Virus record (IMG/VR): IMGVR_UViG_3300020220_000336
Span: 1-23,895 of that record
Source: a virus
Reading direction: 5' to 3' (one strand)
Length of the DNA stretch: 23,895 nucleotides
Below the pieces are notes generated by a model. That model did no database searches. It was given only the letters and a program-made list of their open reading frames with translations, and had not been told where the DNA came from. Shown in pieces: positions 9,645 through 18,208 of this stretch. The position numbers were made by a program, and so were the translations under genes. The first letter of the stretch is position 1, and each line of letters starts with the position of its first letter.

Positions 9645-10585
9645 TTAAATTCACACCCCATCATAAGTTCTGTTAAACATGCAAGCAGATTAATTTCTTG
9701 ATCAGCAACAAAAGCAATCTGATATTGATACTTAGCAATGATCAATACTGCTTCTGGAATAGAACTAGATTTCAAATGATCATACAAACAATCATATATT
9801 TTCCTAAGAATGATGTTGGGATCGCAATCAATATTGTTAGTAATCCATTTGCCAACATTAGTAAACTCTTTATTCTTCAATGAAAGAATAAGAGTATCCA
9901 AATTAATATCAGAAACATCAGCAAGAATTGCAGATGAAATAGATCCAGTTGCAGCATAACGCTGACACTCATTAATCAATCTACGCCAATCTGGATAATA
10001 CTTTTTAACAAGTTTAGCAAGAACTTTATCTTCATAGTCAACCTTCTCAGAAGAAAGAATACTTTTTAAACGATTAAAAAATTCACCCTGTAGTTTTACA
10101 GATTGATCAGGTTTAATTCTAAAGTCAATCACTGTACACCGAGAATGAAGAGGATTGATAATCTTGTTGATAAAGTTGCAGGTAAAGATAAAGCGGCAGT
10201 TGCCGTGAAACTCCTCTACAGCGGTCCGCAGGGACAGTTGAACGTCGTTGGTGGTGTTGTCCGCCTCATCGATGATAACGACCTTGTGGGACGCCCCAGA
10301 GGTCAGAGAGATGGTTGTGGCAAATTGACGGACACGGTTTCGCACCGTATCCAAGAACCGCCCTTCGTCCGAACCGTTGATGACAATATATGATGCACCT
10401 AGTTGTTCACACAATGCTTTTGCAATTGTAGTCTTTCCGACGCCAGCAGGACCAGTAAGAAGAAGATTAGGAATTTCTCCTTGCTCTAGAAATCCACTGA
10501 AGATATCAATTGTAGTTTCAGGAAGAATACAATCATTAACAGTCTTTGGACGATACTTTTCAACCCACAAAAAATCTTTACTCAT
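9641..10585 (-). CDS. gp44: gp44 clamp-loader AAA+ ATPase
   Basis: This 314-aa AAA+ protein has N-terminal FLWVEKYRPKTVNDCILPE, Walker A GPAGVGKT (45-52), DEAD-box-like Walker B VVIIDEADN (102-110), and the SRC motif of clamp loaders (148-150) carrying the trans-acting arginine finger. T4 gp44 is 319 aa. With gp62 it loads gp45 onto primer-template junctions. The ATG at 10585 overlaps the speD stop by 8 nt. A block of about 190 bp (10193-10382) that includes Walker B is about 57% GC against about 30-37% on either side, a sharp composition change inside an otherwise normal frame. Confidence 0.96.
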   Translation of the reverse strand: MSKDFLWVEKYRPKTVNDCILPETTIDIFSGFLEQGEIPNLLLTGPAGVGKTTIAKALCEQLGASYIVINGSDEGRFLDTVRNRVRQFATTISLTSGASHKVVIIDEADNTTNDVQLSLRTAVEEFHGNCRFIFTCNFINKIINPLHSRCTVIDFRIKPDQSVKLQGEFFNRLKSILSSEKVDYEDKVLAKLVKKYYPDWRRLINECQRYAATGSISSAILADVSDINLDTLILSLKNKEFTNVGKWITNNIDCDPNIILRKIYDCLYDHLKSSSIPEAVLIIAKYQYQIAFVADQEINLLACLTELMMGCEFK

Positions 10586-10922
10586 AATTAAAATCAAAAG
10601 GACGTTCGTATTCTTTCACAGTAGAAGATTTACTTTGAAGCATAACCTTCATATAATCATATCCTAACATAGGAATTGCTTCGCCGCAAGTAAAAATATC
10701 ACACACTGCCATTTCTTTTTCTGGCCATGTATGAATACTAATATGACTTTCAGCAAGAAGTGTCACAGCAGTTACTCCTTGAGGGTCAAACTGATGTGAC
10801 ACTGTATTTAAAAATGTTGCCCCACACTTTTTTGCTGTATCGTACAACAAATTTTCTATAAACATTCTGTCATTTAAAAGATCAACATTACATTGATACA
10901 AAGTAAAAAGTACATGCTTCAT
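10578..10922 (-). CDS. speD: SpeD-like S-adenosylmethionine decarboxylase
   Basis: This 114-aa prokaryotic-type AdoMet decarboxylase proenzyme has the self-cleavage site LLAES in which S59 would become the pyruvoyl group, followed by H64 (ISIHTWPE) and C79 (DIFTCG). The spacing +5 and +20 from the serine matches the catalytic Ser/His/Cys set of the bacterial enzyme. It makes decarboxylated AdoMet for spermidine synthesis, and polyamines can compact DNA. It has a good Shine-Dalgarno (GGGGAG) before the ATG at 10922. It overlaps gp44 and so is expressed with the clamp loader. It is known as an auxiliary gene in cyanophages. Confidence 0.92.
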   Translation of the reverse strand: MKHVLFTLYQCNVDLLNDRMFIENLLYDTAKKCGATFLNTVSHQFDPQGVTAVTLLAESHISIHTWPEKEMAVCDIFTCGEAIPMLGYDYMKVMLQSKSSTVKEYERPFDFNYE

Positions 10923-10962: not shown

Positions 10963-11475
10963 TTACACCCATTCAGGTTTTCGTTCTGGCATACGAAGAT
11001 AATTAGATGCAACCCAAGGTTTGGATGCGATATACATCTTGTAAGCAGTAAAAGTATCAATGCTTGTGTCAAATTTATATTCATCTGGCATTGCTCTCGC
11101 AAATGGTGTTACTTCAGTTATTTTACCTTTTGGAAACAAATAATATGCTTGAAGTAAGGTATTGTAACATGAGTGAATTTTTCCATATCGCAGACTATAC
11201 TCGTCACACAAGTTCATACCATGTTTAATCAACCAATAGGCATTATGGATACTATCCATCGCCCATTTGGTACAGGGATGATTACGAAACGCACCCTTTT
11301 CAGTTCTGTAGGGAATACCATTAGTCTTAGGCAAAGTGCCGTAGTTATGACCCCATTTTTGAGATGCAACAATGGAGAGCATTTGACAGCACTCCAGAGG
11401 CATCTTGACGATATGTTTGTCGGGGAGACAGACAGCACTCTCAGCAGGCCAAGGAGATGTTACAAAGATGTTCAA
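10963..11475 (-). CDS. Conserved phage protein, DKHIVKM/HPCTKW family
   Basis: This 170-aa protein belongs to a family I have seen in many phages: an N-terminal MNIFV strand, a conserved DKHIVKMPLECCQML helix (residues 19-33), NHPCTKW in the middle, and a C-terminal EYSLRYGKIHSC block. The invariant Asp, His, Lys and Glu in the first helix and the HPCT motif suggest a catalytic or nucleic-acid-processing role. A resemblance of the DKH/E helix to pyrimidine-dimer glycosylases (T4 DenV) is possible but weak, and I would not name a function. It overlaps the gp45 stop by 4 nt and is followed by speD after 40 nt. Confidence 0.8.
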   Translation of the reverse strand: MNIFVTSPWPAESAVCLPDKHIVKMPLECCQMLSIVASQKWGHNYGTLPKTNGIPYRTEKGAFRNHPCTKWAMDSIHNAYWLIKHGMNLCDEYSLRYGKIHSCYNTLLQAYYLFPKGKITEVTPFARAMPDEYKFDTSIDTFTAYKMYIASKPWVASNYLRMPERKPEWV

Positions 11476-12421: not shown

Positions 12422-12594
12422 TCTTTCCAAATAGTTTCAATAGTATCATGGTAGCATTCTTCAAGGTTTCCGTCAAGGTCCCTGACAAATAATTTCAAAC
12501 CCTCGCCACCTAGGATCCGAACAGTCCTGCCATCTTTGAGGATGGCAAGACAATTTACATAACCGTGGAATTCATTAGAAGGGATCTGCGGCAT
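12418..12594 (-). CDS. 58-aa protein between cobS-like gene and DUF3310 gene
   Basis: This 58-aa product starts MPQIPSNEFHGYVNCLAILK and has a beta-rich look with GRTVRILGGEGLKLFVRDLD. It overlaps the AAA+ gene's 3' end by 20 nt and the DUF3310-like gene by 4 nt. The start at 12594 is preceded only by a weak AAGCAAG. A longer open frame upstream to 12672 lies entirely inside the AAA+ gene and looks like shadow sequence. I do not recognise the family. The short hairpins might suggest a small beta-barrel, without proof. Confidence 0.6.
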   Translation of the reverse strand: MPQIPSNEFHGYVNCLAILKDGRTVRILGGEGLKLFVRDLDGNLEECYHDTIETIWKE

Positions 12595-13678
12595 CTTGCT
12601 TTTCTTCAGTAATAACATCGACATCAATCTTATCATACAGTTCGATGAAAGATTGCTTGGTCTCGTCATCAAAACGATTAATACAAACTTTAATTGCTTT
12701 CATGCGATCTTGCCAGATAGCATAAGCACGGATGATATGAACCAGACGACGGGTGGAAATCACCTCATCAATACCACCATCCTTGAAAGTCTTACGGATA
12801 ATATCTGCCCAGTTAGCAAGATTGATACAGAAATCTTCGTCAGGAATACCAAGACTTTCAGATGCTTTTTGAAGAATTCTAGTTTCAACTGAAGGAGTGG
12901 GATACTCTTGCTCAAACGTGAGAGCAAAACGCTCAAGGAATGCTTCGTTCAGCACGTTGGTGCCGATGAAACGTCCGTCATCAGAACCCTTACCTTTAGT
13001 GTTGGCAGTAGCAATCACGTTGAAACCAGCAGCAGGTTGAACGTAGCGACCAATCTTCTTCAGGAAGATGCCTTTACCTTCTAGCACGGATTGTAGACAA
13101 AGGATTTTGTTGGAGGCAAGGTCAACCTCGTCAAGTAGCAAGATCGCTCCCCTTTCAATGGCGTCGATGACTGGACCATTATGCCAAACAGTGGCACCAT
13201 CAACAAGACGGAAACCGCCAATAAGGTCATCTTCATCAGTTTCAATAGTAATGTTTACACGAATAAGTTCGCGACCAAGTTGAGCACAAGCTTGCTCTAC
13301 AGAAAAAGTCTTACCGTTACCAGACATACCAGTAATAAAAGTAGGATAAAAAATACCAGATTGAATAACTTTTTTCACGTCAGTAAAATTCCCGAACGGG
13401 ACATATCCAGTATCTTTAATAGGAACAAGGTTCTGTTGTTCCCGAGCAGTAACAGCAATAGCAGGAACAGCAGCTGCTGCCTGGTAGGTGTGTTCTAGTT
13501 TCTCTTGAACGGTCAGGTTCCAAGTGCCACGACCAACTTTATATTGCTCAAGTCGTTTGGTAACTGTAGGATAGGATAAACCGATTTCATCTGCAAACTG
13601 GCGAAGATTTACAGACGAAACAGTATTACCATAACGAGTTTGAAGATCGCTAATTTCAAAAGAGGATTTGGAAGACAT
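12575..13678 (-). CDS. cobS: CobS-like AAA+ ATPase with N-terminal HTH
   Basis: This 367-aa AAA+ protein of the MoxR/CobS group has Walker A GMSGNGKT (117-124), Walker B LLLDEVD (180-186), sensor-1 ATANT (223-227) and an arginine finger in FLER (R250). The N-terminal NLRQFADEIGLSYPTVTKRL (24-43) is a clear helix-turn-helix not found at the start of canonical CobS. Cyanophage homologues are usually annotated cobS (cobaltochelatase subunit), but no CobN or standard CobT is here. The neighbouring HExxH/VWA gene suggests an AAA+ and VWA pair instead. Start ATG 13678 is preferred over TTG 13699. A TGCTATAAT promoter lies 25 nt upstream. Confidence 0.85.
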   Translation of the reverse strand: MSSKSSFEISDLQTRYGNTVSSVNLRQFADEIGLSYPTVTKRLEQYKVGRGTWNLTVQEKLEHTYQAAAAVPAIAVTAREQQNLVPIKDTGYVPFGNFTDVKKVIQSGIFYPTFITGMSGNGKTFSVEQACAQLGRELIRVNITIETDEDDLIGGFRLVDGATVWHNGPVIDAIERGAILLLDEVDLASNKILCLQSVLEGKGIFLKKIGRYVQPAAGFNVIATANTKGKGSDDGRFIGTNVLNEAFLERFALTFEQEYPTPSVETRILQKASESLGIPDEDFCINLANWADIIRKTFKDGGIDEVISTRRLVHIIRAYAIWQDRMKAIKVCINRFDDETKQSFIELYDKIDVDVITEEKQDAADPF

Positions 13679-13703
13679 CCGTTTATTTCCCAAGAACAAA
13701 GTT

Positions 13704-13712
13704 ATTATAGCA
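13704..13712 (-). promoter_or_regulatory. Extended -10 promoter TGCTATAAT
   Basis: The minus strand reads TGCTATAAT, a perfect extended -10, between the 173-aa gene and the CobS-like gene, 25 nt before the ATG at 13678. No TTGACA is present upstream. It probably drives the CobS-like gene and the gp45 to regA operon behind it. Confidence 0.65.
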
Positions 13713-13747
13713 CTTCCAATCTATAGAAGGAAGGAAAAGAGACAGTT

Positions 13748-14269
13748 TCAAAACTGGACTTCCCATCCATCAGGAGACTTCAACTTAGCACCAGCCTGAG
13801 CAAGCGCGATCAAAATTTCTGCATTACTAGTTACAGAAGAAGAAGAAAAAGTTGTTTCTTTTTTATCATCGGCAAAAACAGGAGAATTAACTAGAAACTC
13901 TTCAAGAGCTTTATCTTTTTTCTTTGCTTTTACTGCAGTTGCTTGGTCCCTCTTGTTTTTATTTTTCTTTTTAATGGTAAGAAGATGCTTAAAAGTTTCA
14001 GCAAAAACTTTTGCTTTCTTTTCAACATCTGCTGGTTCTTTTGACAAAAGAGTAGAGACTTGAAGGCGAACATAAGATGCTTCCTTTTCCTCCAATCCAG
14101 CTTCGCGAAGAAAGCTAATAATACCCCATGGACTTGTAAAATACTCCAGAGGCATTACAGTAGAACCAACTCCAGTCTTGCATTTGTGCAAGTTTTGTGG
14201 AACCCATTGGGCATATTGATCCATAACTTGATACCAGTTACGCTGGTCAATAGAAGAAAGTAACGACAT
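13748..14269 (-). CDS. Lysine-rich 173-aa protein in the AAA+/VWA module
   Basis: This 173-aa protein of unknown family lies between the VWA-metallopeptidase-like gene and the CobS-like gene. The N-terminal half (SIDQRNWYQVMDQYAQWVPQ, later YFTSPWGIISFLREAGLEEK) looks like a folded helical domain. Residues 98-120 are very lysine-rich (IKKKNKNKRDQ, later KAKKKDK), then a Ser-rich linker (TTFSSSSVTS) leads to a short C-terminal helix. It could be an adaptor or nucleic-acid-binding partner. It has a consensus -35/-10 promoter but no Shine-Dalgarno. Confidence 0.75.
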   Translation of the reverse strand: MSLLSSIDQRNWYQVMDQYAQWVPQNLHKCKTGVGSTVMPLEYFTSPWGIISFLREAGLEEKEASYVRLQVSTLLSKEPADVEKKAKVFAETFKHLLTIKKKNKNKRDQATAVKAKKKDKALEEFLVNSPVFADDKKETTFSSSSVTSNAEILIALAQAGAKLKSPDGWEVQF

Positions 14270-14297
14270 AAAGTAAAATCGTATTGTACGTAAATTA

Positions 14298-14325
14298 ATT
14301 ATAACAGATAAAAGAGAATTGTCAA
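14298..14325 (-). promoter_or_regulatory. Consensus promoter TTGACA-16-TATAAT
   Basis: On the minus strand TTGACA (14325-14320) and TATAAT (14303-14298) are separated by 16 nt, and a TG precedes the -10 by one base. Both hexamers are perfect sigma-70 consensus. It lies 29 nt before the ATG of the 173-aa gene and overlaps the stop of the preceding VWA gene. Host RNA polymerase should recognise it, so early transcription is likely. Confidence 0.85.
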
Positions 14326-16421
14326 GAGACTAGAGTTGCAAATGAGTTGAGAATTTTCTTATTAACGGTTTTAGACCTTAACATTTTTTTAAATGCTTTT
14401 GTAATCTGGACTTTAGATGCTTCAGAATCTATTTCAAAATTATCTTTATCCTGTGACATACTGTGTGAAGCGATGTAGTAAACAGCGTCCCACCCAGAAT
14501 ACTTGAATACCCAAGACTTCTCTTTACGCCAAGATGCCATTGCCTGATTATCATTATAAGTATTATACACCGAGCGATAGGTGCGACCAAAATCAGATCC
14601 AGAAGAAATTCTAAATCCAATTAAGTTGACTTCTGGGAAACGATCTTTCAGATTTTGAATGAGAATGTTTGTAGTTCCAGAATCAAACGTTACTTCAAAT
14701 TCTTTATAAACCCTGCCAGTCTTACGGTCTCGAAGACACTTGCCATAGTCAACAGCATTCTTTCCAAGAATTTCTTTATCATGCCTAGTAATGCTTATAT
14801 CATGATGTATAGGATTAGATTCTCCATCAGTAAGAATACAGACTGTTACTTTTTCGGCATTAGTTTTTTTCTTAAAGTTAGGAATAATTTTACTGAGGGT
14901 AATGATTGTCTCATTCAAAGGAGTTCCACTCAGATCAAGTCCACAAGGAATACTCATGCCACTGTAGCGACTACGGTCTAAAGAAAATGCAGTCCTCCAA
15001 ATATTCTTACACTGTTCTTCAAATACTCGATTGTTACAATCTGAAGTAAAGAAGTGCAGTAAACTGAACAGTTCGTTGACACCAATTTTATTGTGTCCTC
15101 GTTCATATTTTTGCATATCACCATCTCGATAAGGATCTGCCCAGCAATATGTAAATGCATATACATCAAAAGGGATTTGAACTTTACGGCAGAACCACAT
15201 CAAATTTAAAAGTTGCTTAACAGTATCCATCAAGTATTCTTGCATGGATCCAGACCAGTCAAGAATAAAAATCATGCCATGATTTTTACCATCTGGAAGA
15301 ACAGTAACCTTCTTAAAAATATCTTCGTTGTACGTATAACTGTGGAGTTTTTGAGTATCAATAACTCCAGTTTTACTAGTGCTAGCACGAGCATACGCAC
15401 TAGCAGACTTACGACATTCAAATTCCTTGACAAGATAATTAACTTCTTTTTGTGCAGTTTTTTTGAAATCTTGATATTGACTATCTGCTACATGAAGACT
15501 TTCTTTATATGAAGTGTCATCAAGATGTTCCCAATGATCTGAACATCTTTTATGAACTTCTTCATTATTTACGATGATACGATCTTCGTAAACTTCTGCA
15601 AGTTCAAGATAAGTAATATCACGATGATGCCTATTACTACTGGTAAGTTCTTCTGTACTATCATCAAATGACCGTTGAGTTTGAGATACATTCTCATCTG
15701 CTAGCGATCCTCCACGAGAAGTATTTTCTTCTCTTTGATTATCTTCTGCTTCTTGTTTTTTTCCTTCGCCTTCTTTCTCTCCATCTGCTTCGTCAGATTG
15801 AGAAGATTCATAATTAGGAGAAGAAGAACCTTCTTGAGAACCAGAATTTTTTTTCTGAGGAATACTCTCCATAGGTTTTTCTGAAATATACTTTTTAAGT
15901 GCCTCACAAATTTTAATCACATCATCAAAAGTTTCTGCTTTTTCTGTTGCAATCACAAAAGCACGTTCTTCTTCAGTAAAGGGCATCATGATATGACTGC
16001 CAATCTTAAAATGAAGATTGATGCGATCGATCAAACTAAGAGTATTAAGATCAGTATCTTCAACACCAAAGAAATCTTCAGTGTGAAGTTCTTTGTATCC
16101 ACTAAAAAATGACTTAGCAAGACCAGGATACTTACGCTTCATCATCTTCTCGATACGAGCATCCTCAATCACGTTAATATAATCTTTAGGAATCTTCACA
16201 CGCTTAGTCCAATCCTCATTAGGTGTAAAGAGGGCATGACCCACCTCATGTCCCACCAGAAGATCGTACACAACGCTAGAAGCACGGTTCCAAACAGGAA
16301 GAACAAGCACCCTGTTCTGAACATCGAAGGAAGCAGTAGGGACCTGTTTGTGCTCAATTACAAGGTTTTCAGTAGCAAGCAGACGAGCAAGTTGACCTTT
16401 GATTTCTCGATTGATTGACAT
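14322..16421 (-). CDS. HExxH metallopeptidase-like plus VWA domain protein
   Basis: This 699-aa protein has two recognisable ends. The N-terminal part carries a zinc-peptidase signature: LVGHEVGHALF (HEVGH 58-62) followed by INVIEDARIEK (82-92), which could give the third ligand. A low-complexity Ser/Glu/Lys linker covers about 186-260. The C-terminal part is a VWA domain with MIDAS motif DWSGS (388-392) and a later LTDGESN. CobT-like and MoxR-associated VWA proteins share this HExxH plus VWA plan, which fits the nearby AAA+ ATPase. I use ATG 16421; the frame extends to a TTG at 16457 lying in the promoter region. The Shine-Dalgarno is weak. Confidence 0.85.
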   Translation of the reverse strand: MSINREIKGQLARLLATENLVIEHKQVPTASFDVQNRVLVLPVWNRASSVVYDLLVGHEVGHALFTPNEDWTKRVKIPKDYINVIEDARIEKMMKRKYPGLAKSFFSGYKELHTEDFFGVEDTDLNTLSLIDRINLHFKIGSHIMMPFTEEERAFVIATEKAETFDDVIKICEALKKYISEKPMESIPQKKNSGSQEGSSSPNYESSQSDEADGEKEGEGKKQEAEDNQREENTSRGGSLADENVSQTQRSFDDSTEELTSSNRHHRDITYLELAEVYEDRIIVNNEEVHKRCSDHWEHLDDTSYKESLHVADSQYQDFKKTAQKEVNYLVKEFECRKSASAYARASTSKTGVIDTQKLHSYTYNEDIFKKVTVLPDGKNHGMIFILDWSGSMQEYLMDTVKQLLNLMWFCRKVQIPFDVYAFTYCWADPYRDGDMQKYERGHNKIGVNELFSLLHFFTSDCNNRVFEEQCKNIWRTAFSLDRSRYSGMSIPCGLDLSGTPLNETIITLSKIIPNFKKKTNAEKVTVCILTDGESNPIHHDISITRHDKEILGKNAVDYGKCLRDRKTGRVYKEFEVTFDSGTTNILIQNLKDRFPEVNLIGFRISSGSDFGRTYRSVYNTYNDNQAMASWRKEKSWVFKYSGWDAVYYIASHSMSQDKDNFEIDSEASKVQITKAFKKMLRSKTVNKKILNSFATLVS

Positions 16422-16443: not shown

Positions 16444-16471
16444 ATTGTACACCACAAAAAAAGGGGATCAA
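16444..16471 (-). promoter_or_regulatory. Candidate promoter TTGATC-16-TACAAT
   Basis: The minus strand has TTGATC (16471-16466) and TACAAT (16449-16444) with a 16-nt spacer, giving a start about 15 nt before the ATG at 16421. The -35 lies in the gp46 terminator hairpin, so the assignment is moderate. Confidence 0.4.
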
Positions 16472-16477
16472 CTCCCC
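16456..16477 (-). terminator. Terminator after gp46
   Basis: The minus strand reads GGGGA-GTTGA-TCCCC followed by TTTTTTT (5-bp GC-rich stem, 5-nt loop, 7 T). It abuts the gp46 stop codon and separates the gp55-gp47-gp46 operon from the VWA gene. The stem is short but the U tract is perfect. Confidence 0.75.
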
Positions 16478-18208
16478 CTAGTCCACTTCTGAAACTGTCT
16501 CCTCACAAGCACTGTAGTTCTTGACTTTAGAAAATCGAATTGTTTTATCAAACTTTCCTTCAAGACTTTCTTTGTGACTGATAACAAATACATTTGTTTT
16601 CTCATCAAAGTTTCGTAAGATCCATCCCAATTCACCTGTACCAGTTTGGTCTAGGGAACCATCAAAGATTTCATCTAGGATCAGGAGGTTGGTATCTACG
16701 CTATTCTTGAGTTTAGCAATAGCTCTCCAAGTAAGCAACAAAGCAATATCAATTCTAGCTTTCTCCCCTTCACTAAAAGATTCGTAAGTGAAGATATCTC
16801 TATATCGTGATTTAATTGTTTCTTCAAAGTTTTCATCCAATGTAAAGTTTACATAAAAATCCATATTCTGAAGATACTGATTAATCAATTTATTCATCAA
16901 AGGAAGATACTTCTTGATAATCCTAGTTTTAATACCATTATCTTTCAGCAATTGAGATGCAACTAAAAGAACATCTCTATCTTTTTTTAGATCAGATAAA
17001 TTGTGTTTGACCGCCTTCTTGTCATTAACTAGAATTTGAAGTTTGTTGTATTCTGCTTTTTTATCTGGGTTGGATTCCTCAAGATTTTTGATTTCATTTT
17101 CTACATCTGAAATATTTTTACGAATACTTGAGACCTGAAAATTTAATTGAGTAATTTTAGAATTTAAATTTGTAATATTACTAGAAATTTCACAAAACTT
17201 TTTCTCTCGCTGTTCTTCTTGACTGATAGCGGAAAGAATATCCTGAAGTCCTGTCTGCAAATTTTCTAGTTCTGAACCACTAGTATCTAGTTTTTCTTTT
17301 CGGAAATCTTCGCTAAGATCTTGAGTGCAAGTGGGACAGACATGATTTTCATTAAAAAACTTATACTCATGCTGACATGTCCGAACTTTTAACTGGATCT
17401 TCATAAGATACTTATTTAACTTCTTAAGTTTTTCAGAAGAAGTTGATACAGTTTGAAGATTTTCTGTATGCTCAGAAATCTGTCTATTAAATTCTTCAAT
17501 AGCGTGATGATTTTCGTTCTCTTCTTCAAGTAGAGATTGAATTTTTTGATGCTTACGATCAATCTCTTCAGTATTCTTTTTTTCCAGTTCAAGCATATAA
17601 CTTTTTTGAAGATTAATTTTTTCATCTAAGATATTAATCTTATATTCAAAATCTTTTAGTTCTTCCGTATTGTCTTTTAGTTTATCTTTCAACCTCTGGT
17701 TCATCACAGAGAACACTTGAATATCAAGAATATCTTCAATAATCTCACGACGTTGAGCAAGAGGAAGACGCATGAAAGGAACAAATGTAGAAGACCCTAG
17801 AACCACAATCTGAGTGAAAGATTTGTAATTCATCTTCAAAATATTTTGTTCCAACTGTTTTTGATAGTCAACAGCAGAACTAGATTGATCTAGCATTACG
17901 CCGTTTTGCCAGACCTCAAAAATATTTGGTTTGATTCCCCTACGAATAAAAAAGTTGTTTTTGCCAATACAAAATTCTAACTCTGTCAAACAATCTTTTT
18001 CATTTACGCTGTTGACCAGCATAGGTTTGTTGATCTTACGAAACGGTTTTCCAAACAGCGAAAAAGTAAGAGCATCCAAGATTGTGCTTTTTCCTGCACC
18101 GTTTTGACCAATGATTAGATTAGTCTTGGTATCATTCAAATTTAATTCAGTGAATGTGTTTCCAGTACTTAGGAAATTTTTCCACTTAATTTTTTTAAAT
18201 ACAATCAT
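16478..18208 (-). CDS. gp46: gp46 recombination nuclease ATPase subunit (Rad50/SbcC-like)
   Basis: This 576-aa SMC-type ATPase has Walker A GQNGAGKS (34-41), two coiled-coil arms (about 165-280 and 310-415), zinc-hook CPTC (291-294), signature FSEGEKARIDIA (478-489), Walker B LLILDE (508-513) and H-loop ISHKE (H545). With gp47 it forms the Mre11/Rad50-like complex that resects DNA ends for UvsX-driven recombination and degrades host DNA. T4 gp46 is about 560 aa. It overlaps the DUF3110-like gene by 4 nt (ATGA) and is the last gene before a terminator. Confidence 0.95.
   Translation of the reverse strand: MIVFKKIKWKNFLSTGNTFTELNLNDTKTNLIIGQNGAGKSTILDALTFSLFGKPFRKINKPMLVNSVNEKDCLTELEFCIGKNNFFIRRGIKPNIFEVWQNGVMLDQSSSAVDYQKQLEQNILKMNYKSFTQIVVLGSSTFVPFMRLPLAQRREIIEDILDIQVFSVMNQRLKDKLKDNTEELKDFEYKINILDEKINLQKSYMLELEKKNTEEIDRKHQKIQSLLEEENENHHAIEEFNRQISEHTENLQTVSTSSEKLKKLNKYLMKIQLKVRTCQHEYKFFNENHVCPTCTQDLSEDFRKEKLDTSGSELENLQTGLQDILSAISQEEQREKKFCEISSNITNLNSKITQLNFQVSSIRKNISDVENEIKNLEESNPDKKAEYNKLQILVNDKKAVKHNLSDLKKDRDVLLVASQLLKDNGIKTRIIKKYLPLMNKLINQYLQNMDFYVNFTLDENFEETIKSRYRDIFTYESFSEGEKARIDIALLLTWRAIAKLKNSVDTNLLILDEIFDGSLDQTGTGELGWILRNFDEKTNVFVISHKESLEGKFDKTIRFSKVKNYSACEETVSEVD

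Follow-up and report, generated by a model that had tools for sequence, protein, structure and literature searches.

A MoxR-type ATPase paired with a VWA protein carrying an intact metallopeptidase motif in a T4-like marine cyanophage sequence

The cobS gene was listed among the core genes of cyanophages by Sullivan et al. 2010 (PMC3037559). Liu et al. 2021 (PMC8651126) described cyanophage cobST as core and as widespread in tailed viruses, proposed that it hijacks CobN and called the name 'peptidase' of one partner a misannotation; the CobN idea is restated in PMC13390420. Virome surveys have tallied cobS as vitamin B12 metabolism (PMC9301287, PMC9983427, PMC13390420), and one of them describes retention of the host function by phage cobS as unknown (PMC9983427). 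Iyer et al. 2021 (PMC7824862) described a virion chaperone of MoxR, vWA and metallopeptidase domains in the group 2.2 jumbo phages and placed the cyanophages in group 2.1. In the open-access literature that was searched, no paper was found testing the CobST or the MoxR-vWA reading, or noting the contrast of the zinc site with CobT. The corresponding gene pair was analysed here in the IMG/VR virus record IMGVR_UViG_3300020220_000336 (positions 1 to 23,895; this whole 23.9-kb stretch is called the window), whose best matches are to T4-like marine cyanophages (Kyanoviridae), with which it also agrees in gene order.

The pair is commonly read as a vitamin B12 gene and a stray peptidase. What it resembles instead is an ATP-driven machine of two parts, an AAA+ motor and a zinc-peptidase partner, and its identification as a MoxR-vWA pair with an intact metallopeptidase motif is strongly supported. 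The initial annotation of the window, which had suggested a phage chaperone or protease machine in place of a cobaltochelatase, was right in kind; this kind had already been published (PMC7824862), and the proteolysis that it implies is a prediction from sequence. The additions made here are the reach of the system into cyanophages, a site that is absent in CobT and the link to replication.

The paired proteins and their conservation

The larger protein of the pair (699 aa, 14322-16421, on the minus strand like all window features given below) is annotated as 'peptidase', matches PHROG_459 with an E-value of 7.9e-258 and belongs remotely to the CobT superfamily. The zinc-peptidase motif HEVGH (residues 58-62, 16236-16250) and the DxSxS signature of the metal ion-dependent adhesion site (MIDAS), here DWSGS (residues 388-392, 15246-15260), were located exactly as the initial annotation had claimed. 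The alignment of 87 homologues from T4-like phages (80 IMG/VR loci and seven annotated phages) revealed strong constraint on both. Residues H58, E59, H62, N83, E86, D87, R89 and E91 were invariant (87/87), as were D388, S390 and S392; the MIDAS is completed by T500 (14922-14924, 86/87) and D532 (14826-14828, 87/87). With identities to the window protein of only about 30-53% across the homologues, neither motif can be a chance occurrence. A diverged copy of the pair in Pseudoalteromonas phage vB_Psh_XG4 (L004), which infects a marine host outside the cyanobacteria, seems to have a broken frame; its record is unverified, and it was excluded from the alignments.

The motif NVIEDARIE (residues 83-91, 16149-16175) follows the zinc motif and contains Glu86, the predicted third zinc ligand, so that the zincin signature of HExxH and a downstream glutamate is conserved throughout the set. 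Similar motifs were found in the relatives from SSU5, Gordonia, HVTV-1 and HTVC008M. In the AlphaFold model of the protein (mean predicted local distance difference test score, pLDDT, of 77 and predicted template modelling score of 0.73), HEVGH lies in a helix of residues 49-65 and the second motif in a helix of residues 79-97, with block pLDDT of about 85-92; this is as would be expected of a zincin. The zincin region also matched a second phage family, phrog_1576 (E 7.6e-6). The top PDB fold match of the C-terminus in Foldseek was the VWA domain of NorD (E 5.8e-4), and a search of predicted viral structures recovered the full-length architecture in Gordonia, haloarchaeal and Thermus viruses. 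The glutamate of the motif in HExxH peptidases is catalytic and dispensable for zinc binding; the invariance of Glu59 is thus the best hint that the protein may be catalytically active.

The smaller protein is a CobS/MoxR-type AAA+ ATPase annotated as cobS or 'porphyrin biosynthesis'. Its open reading frame (12575-13699) opens at TTG, but alignments with homologues begin at the ATG at position 13678, where the protein probably starts (12575-13678, 367 aa). It matched PHROG_249 (E 1.2e-138) and the Pfam families AAA_5 (65.9 bits, E 4.8e-18) and CbbQ_C (21.2 bits, above the cut-off of 20.6). Its closest PDB folds in Foldseek were NorQ, including NorQ-NorD complexes, and CbbQ (E 4e-15 to 2e-14), which together with the Pfam scores assigns it to the MoxR type; as in MoxR/vWA systems, its gene adjoins a VWA gene with a complete MIDAS. 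The Walker A motif GMSGNGKT is encoded at 13307-13330, and S126-G127-N128-G129-K130-T131 is conserved in 64 homologues. The helix-turn-helix that had been claimed at the N-terminus was supported by the AlphaFold model and by a weak DUF2089-HTH match (1e-4, under the curated cut-off). The predicted winged-helix-like domain covers residues 16-61 of the long reading frame (13517-13654), with helices at 16-23, 29-39 and 43-49 and strands at 26-28, 54-56 and 59-61, that is in the order helix-strand-helix-helix-strand-strand, and the block pLDDT of residues 11-60 is 76-90. Two other assignments were rejected. The ATPase resembles CbbQ of the Rubisco activase CbbQO, yet the pair is also found in phages of heterotrophic hosts, which makes a role in cyanobacterial carbon metabolism unlikely; for a defence system, PADLOC returned only mad1 (E 0.034).

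The tblastn search of 50,697 phage records found the ATPase and the peptidase in equal numbers, each in 365 Synechococcus, 61 Cyanophage and 24 Prochlorococcus records. Almost every T4-like virus that infects ocean cyanobacteria has the pair. The ATPase additionally gave many distant matches in other phages; those from Staphylococcus and Acinetobacter were rejected as pairs, as the adjacent gene has neither HExxH nor DxSxS. The CobS gene lies downstream of the peptidase gene in 76 of the 87 loci, and the other 11 loci end within 933 nt. In a second lineage (SSU5/Rhizobium-type, about 105-120 kb) it follows the peptidase gene in all 77 loci with room for it. The AAA+ and VWA-metallopeptidase genes are therefore an obligate, syntenic pair, in accordance with the partnership proposed for them in the initial annotation.

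The same annotation had counted the lysine-rich protein encoded between them as a third member, and this part did not stand. The reading frame exists (13748-14269, 173 aa, 12.7% Lys), but the protein gave no tblastn match in the 50,697 phage records and has relatives in only 3 of the 87 loci, one of them weak. It was rejected as a third subunit and is an optional neighbour outside the conserved pair. The interval between the two genes is short, overlapping or occupied by unrelated genes in most phages: it measures less than 150 nt in about two fifths of the 87 loci, with a 4-nt overlap in four, and its contents vary from nothing to a pyrimidine-dimer glycosylase or short unrelated proteins. 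A protein of 80-120 aa (MSRFGDLLGG... SMSKKELEEYGRTVGIELDRRHSK..LVKEL) with a SAP- or HeH-like C-terminus and no Pfam family recurs directly before CobS (L028, L049, L062, L065, L080, L089, L091, L003 and L039).

Replication-gene context and the cobaltochelatase question

The gene order in T4-like cyanophages is gp55-47-46-pair-45-44, which places the pair between genes 46 and 45; it is relocated from this position in S-CRM01 and S-CREM2. Unrelated phages and an archaeal virus likewise carry it among DNA-replication genes. In the second lineage, DNA polymerase III alpha is encoded 1.5-3.8 kb downstream of the pair in 66 of the 68 loci with room. In V. cholerae phage ICP2 the primase, helicase and polymerase genes come after the pair; that of Thermus P74-26 has DnaB nearby and is on the strand opposite the terminase and portal genes; in Gordonia UBSmoodge DnaB is also near, and in the archaeal HVTV-1 the pair is on the DNA-metabolism arm. 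The loci inside one lineage are not independent, and the independent lineages number about six. The position beside replication genes and not virion genes in unrelated lineages suggests that proteins of the replication phase are remodelled or cleaved.

This context also bears on a role in virion assembly, in which the pair would serve as chaperone and processing protease on the model of the ATV tail system (PMC7824862). The architecture is the same, a MoxR protein and a vWA protein with an N-terminal metallopeptidase; MoxR-vWA systems assemble large complexes, and the phrog_1576 match links the zincin region to another phage family. However, in the lineages read the pair is distant from head and tail genes, and no TATAAATA late-promoter box was found near the pair genes within the window. 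A virion role is thus considered unlikely.

The zinc motif is retained well beyond the cyanophages. HExxH was present in all 77 N-terminally complete SSU5/Rhizobium-type proteins and in those of Gordonia UBSmoodge, Roseobacter CRP-810, V. cholerae ICP2-type phages and HVTV-1. The Pelagibacter phage HTVC008M has the pair in the same order with the motif intact, and related pairs were found in Salmonella SSU5, in E. coli and Klebsiella phages and in ICP2. The V. cholerae phages ICP2 (L100) and JSF27 (L009) have the form HECYH with an unusual downstream motif, NMVVDHNIEYK.

These distributions, along with the family profiles, bear on the published proposal that the pair supplies CobS and CobT subunits to the host CobN and thereby increases cobalt insertion and B12 during infection. 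The remote homology behind it is real: the SSU5-type relatives pass the Pfam models CobT and CobT_C and match the PDB CobT 9uka with an E-value of 5.6e-63. The cyanophage family aligned with them over the linker and VWA region (hhalign E 4.7e-20), and its profile matched the zincin region of a Xenorhabdus relative (E 8.4e-7). Aligned directly with cellular CobT, the cyanophage VWA protein gave only a weak and short match (hhalign probability 1%, E 0.047); the SSU5-type proteins form the bridge between the two families. The cyanophage proteins fail the family cut-offs. The ATPase scored 70.0 bits against the CobS equivalog model TIGR01650 (cut-off 558.55), and the 699-aa protein scored 11.5 bits against Pfam CobT PF06213 (E 0.2, cut-off 26.1), did not match CobT_C in Pfam and had no match to PDB CobT at E<=1.

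HExxH, kept in the phages, was found in none of 30 cellular CobT proteins; these had been selected as the top hits of the CobT model and so largely represent a single type, and the N-terminus of one was cut short. When phage and cellular sequences are aligned jointly, HEVAH of the phages stands opposite SVALK, AFALR or similar in cellular CobT, and the downstream E..R.E is mostly retained. CobT may therefore be a relative in which the peptidase site has disappeared.

The hosts were also considered. CobN is present in Synechococcus elongatus, used as a control; a partner thus exists in cyanobacteria, and the cyanophages alone could not decide the cobalt question. The lack of CobN to which the initial annotation had pointed carries little weight, as the window is a fragment. 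The Salmonella, E. coli, Klebsiella and V. cholerae hosts are not known to make a corrin through CobN. The Xenorhabdus genome that carries the pair gave no CobN match, and SAR11, the host clade of HTVC008M, is B12-auxotrophic (PMC9296465). With the failed cut-offs, the zinc motif, these hosts and a replication gene context that holds whatever the host, the doubt already raised about a cobaltochelatase role was borne out: that the pair is not a cobaltochelatase is well supported, and a contribution to host CobN is improbable. On the cellular side, about 13 of some 64 Pseudomonadota genomes with a strong CobT match gave no CobN match, and Caulobacter vibrioides matched CobT but not CobN; cellular CobST may have another role, or the genomes may be incomplete.

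Proposed activity of the pair

The outer genes encode what is probably a MoxR-type AAA+ motor and a VWA cochaperone of the NorQ/NorD, CbbQ/CbbO and CobS/CobT kind, with an intact zincin-type metallopeptidase motif in the N-terminus of the cochaperone. The ATPase would form a ring, and through its metal-bound MIDAS the VWA domain would dock both on this ring and on the substrate. ATP hydrolysis would then pull or remodel the substrate, and the tethered peptidase may cut it or trim a partner. The winged helix of the ATPase may bring the machine to DNA or to a protein bound there. The pair would act in the replication phase, by cleavage, and its substrate would most likely be a phage or host protein of replication and DNA metabolism rather than cobalt, a corrin or a virion component. 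This reading as a whole, a MoxR-type motor and a VWA cochaperone with a zincin motif acting on a replication-phase substrate, is considered probable.

Several observations weigh against it. The 50 best PDB matches of the full 699-aa chain in Foldseek included no zincin fold, so that the predicted peptidase fold rests on the motif, the helix placement and the conservation. The proteins of Stenotrophomonas phage BUCTxx99 (L099 3346-5331, with DREVS at the site) and Thermus P74-26 (L218 26358-28049) are without HExxH and keep the VWA domain and the ATPase partner, which indicates that some lineages do without peptidase activity. The alignment of SSU5-type ATPases to the window ATPase spans residues 81-322 only and does not recover the winged helix, which may mean that only T4-like phages have this domain. 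The synteny with replication genes within a lineage may be inherited and not functional.

Two phage lineages and every cellular CobT tested lack HExxH while keeping AAA+ and VWA. This would also suit a purely remodelling MoxR-vWA chaperone whose metallopeptidase domain binds zinc for a structural or recognition role and does not cut. The catalytic Glu59, which zinc binding does not need, is nevertheless present in all 87 homologues and kept in several other lineages, and we rate such a chaperone as a rather unlikely explanation. The reading as a replication-phase machine may be extended to a class of VWA-tethered, ATP-driven metalloproteases in bacterial and archaeal tailed viruses, removing or processing DNA-bound proteins of the replication phase, with CobT as a relative that lost its active site; this extension is put forward tentatively, as a possibility more doubtful than not.

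Neighbouring genes and comparison with known systems

The pair lies in a minus-strand gene array (1591-21988) that begins with replicative helicase, UvsX, DNA polymerase, RegA, a Dam-type methyltransferase, clamp loader and SpeD genes and continues with pyrimidine-dimer glycosylase, clamp, the ATPase, 173-aa and peptidase genes, gp46, gp47, gp55 and a DNA helicase; clamp, gp46 and gp47 were named from synteny. The speD gene (10578-10922), between the clamp loader and glycosylase genes, encodes a short S-adenosylmethionine decarboxylase. The pyrimidine-dimer DNA glycosylase gene is mobile around the cluster: it lies at 10963-11475 in the window and between the peptidase and CobS genes at 8211-8741 in L003 and 3835-4347 in L077. 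A perfect sigma-70 promoter match (TTGACA-16-TATAAT with TG, 12/12, 14298-14325) precedes the 173-aa and ATPase genes. The interval between gene 46 and the peptidase gene contains a terminator-like hairpin (16461-16479) overlapped by a promoter-like site (9/12, 16444-16471). All three are consensus matches only, and they suggest expression of the pair genes by a polymerase of the host type. The text of a paper on expression in Prochlorococcus cyanophages does not mention cobS.

If the pair is a remodelling protease of the replication phase, viral B12 metabolism is not what cobS counts in virome surveys measure, and two core genes of viruses abundant in the ocean acquire a testable role. The comparison also suggests that the cobaltochelatase CobT would carry a dead peptidase domain.

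Among the known systems, the pair of the group 2.2 jumbo phages (PMC7824862) is alike in having a MoxR AAA+ gene beside a vWA protein with a fused N-terminal metallopeptidase. It differs in the virion-assembly role proposed for it, whereas the cyanophage pair has a replication context and a winged helix on its ATPase. The viral CobST of PMC8651126 is the identical gene pair, but the zinc motif, hosts and gene context described here argue against CobN hijacking. NorQ/NorD and CbbQ/CbbO provide the closest solved folds of the ATPase and the VWA domain and have the AAA+ ring with a VWA cochaperone that is proposed for the phage pair; unlike the phage pair, they have no known metallopeptidase domain, and their substrates are NO reductase and Rubisco. 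CobS/CobT (PDB 9uka) has homologous AAA+ and VWA subunits with an acidic linker, and the N-terminus of CobT aligns with the phage peptidase domain through the SSU5-type proteins. CobT is however without HExxH, and CobS acts with CobN and matches the phage ATPase only from beyond the winged helix.

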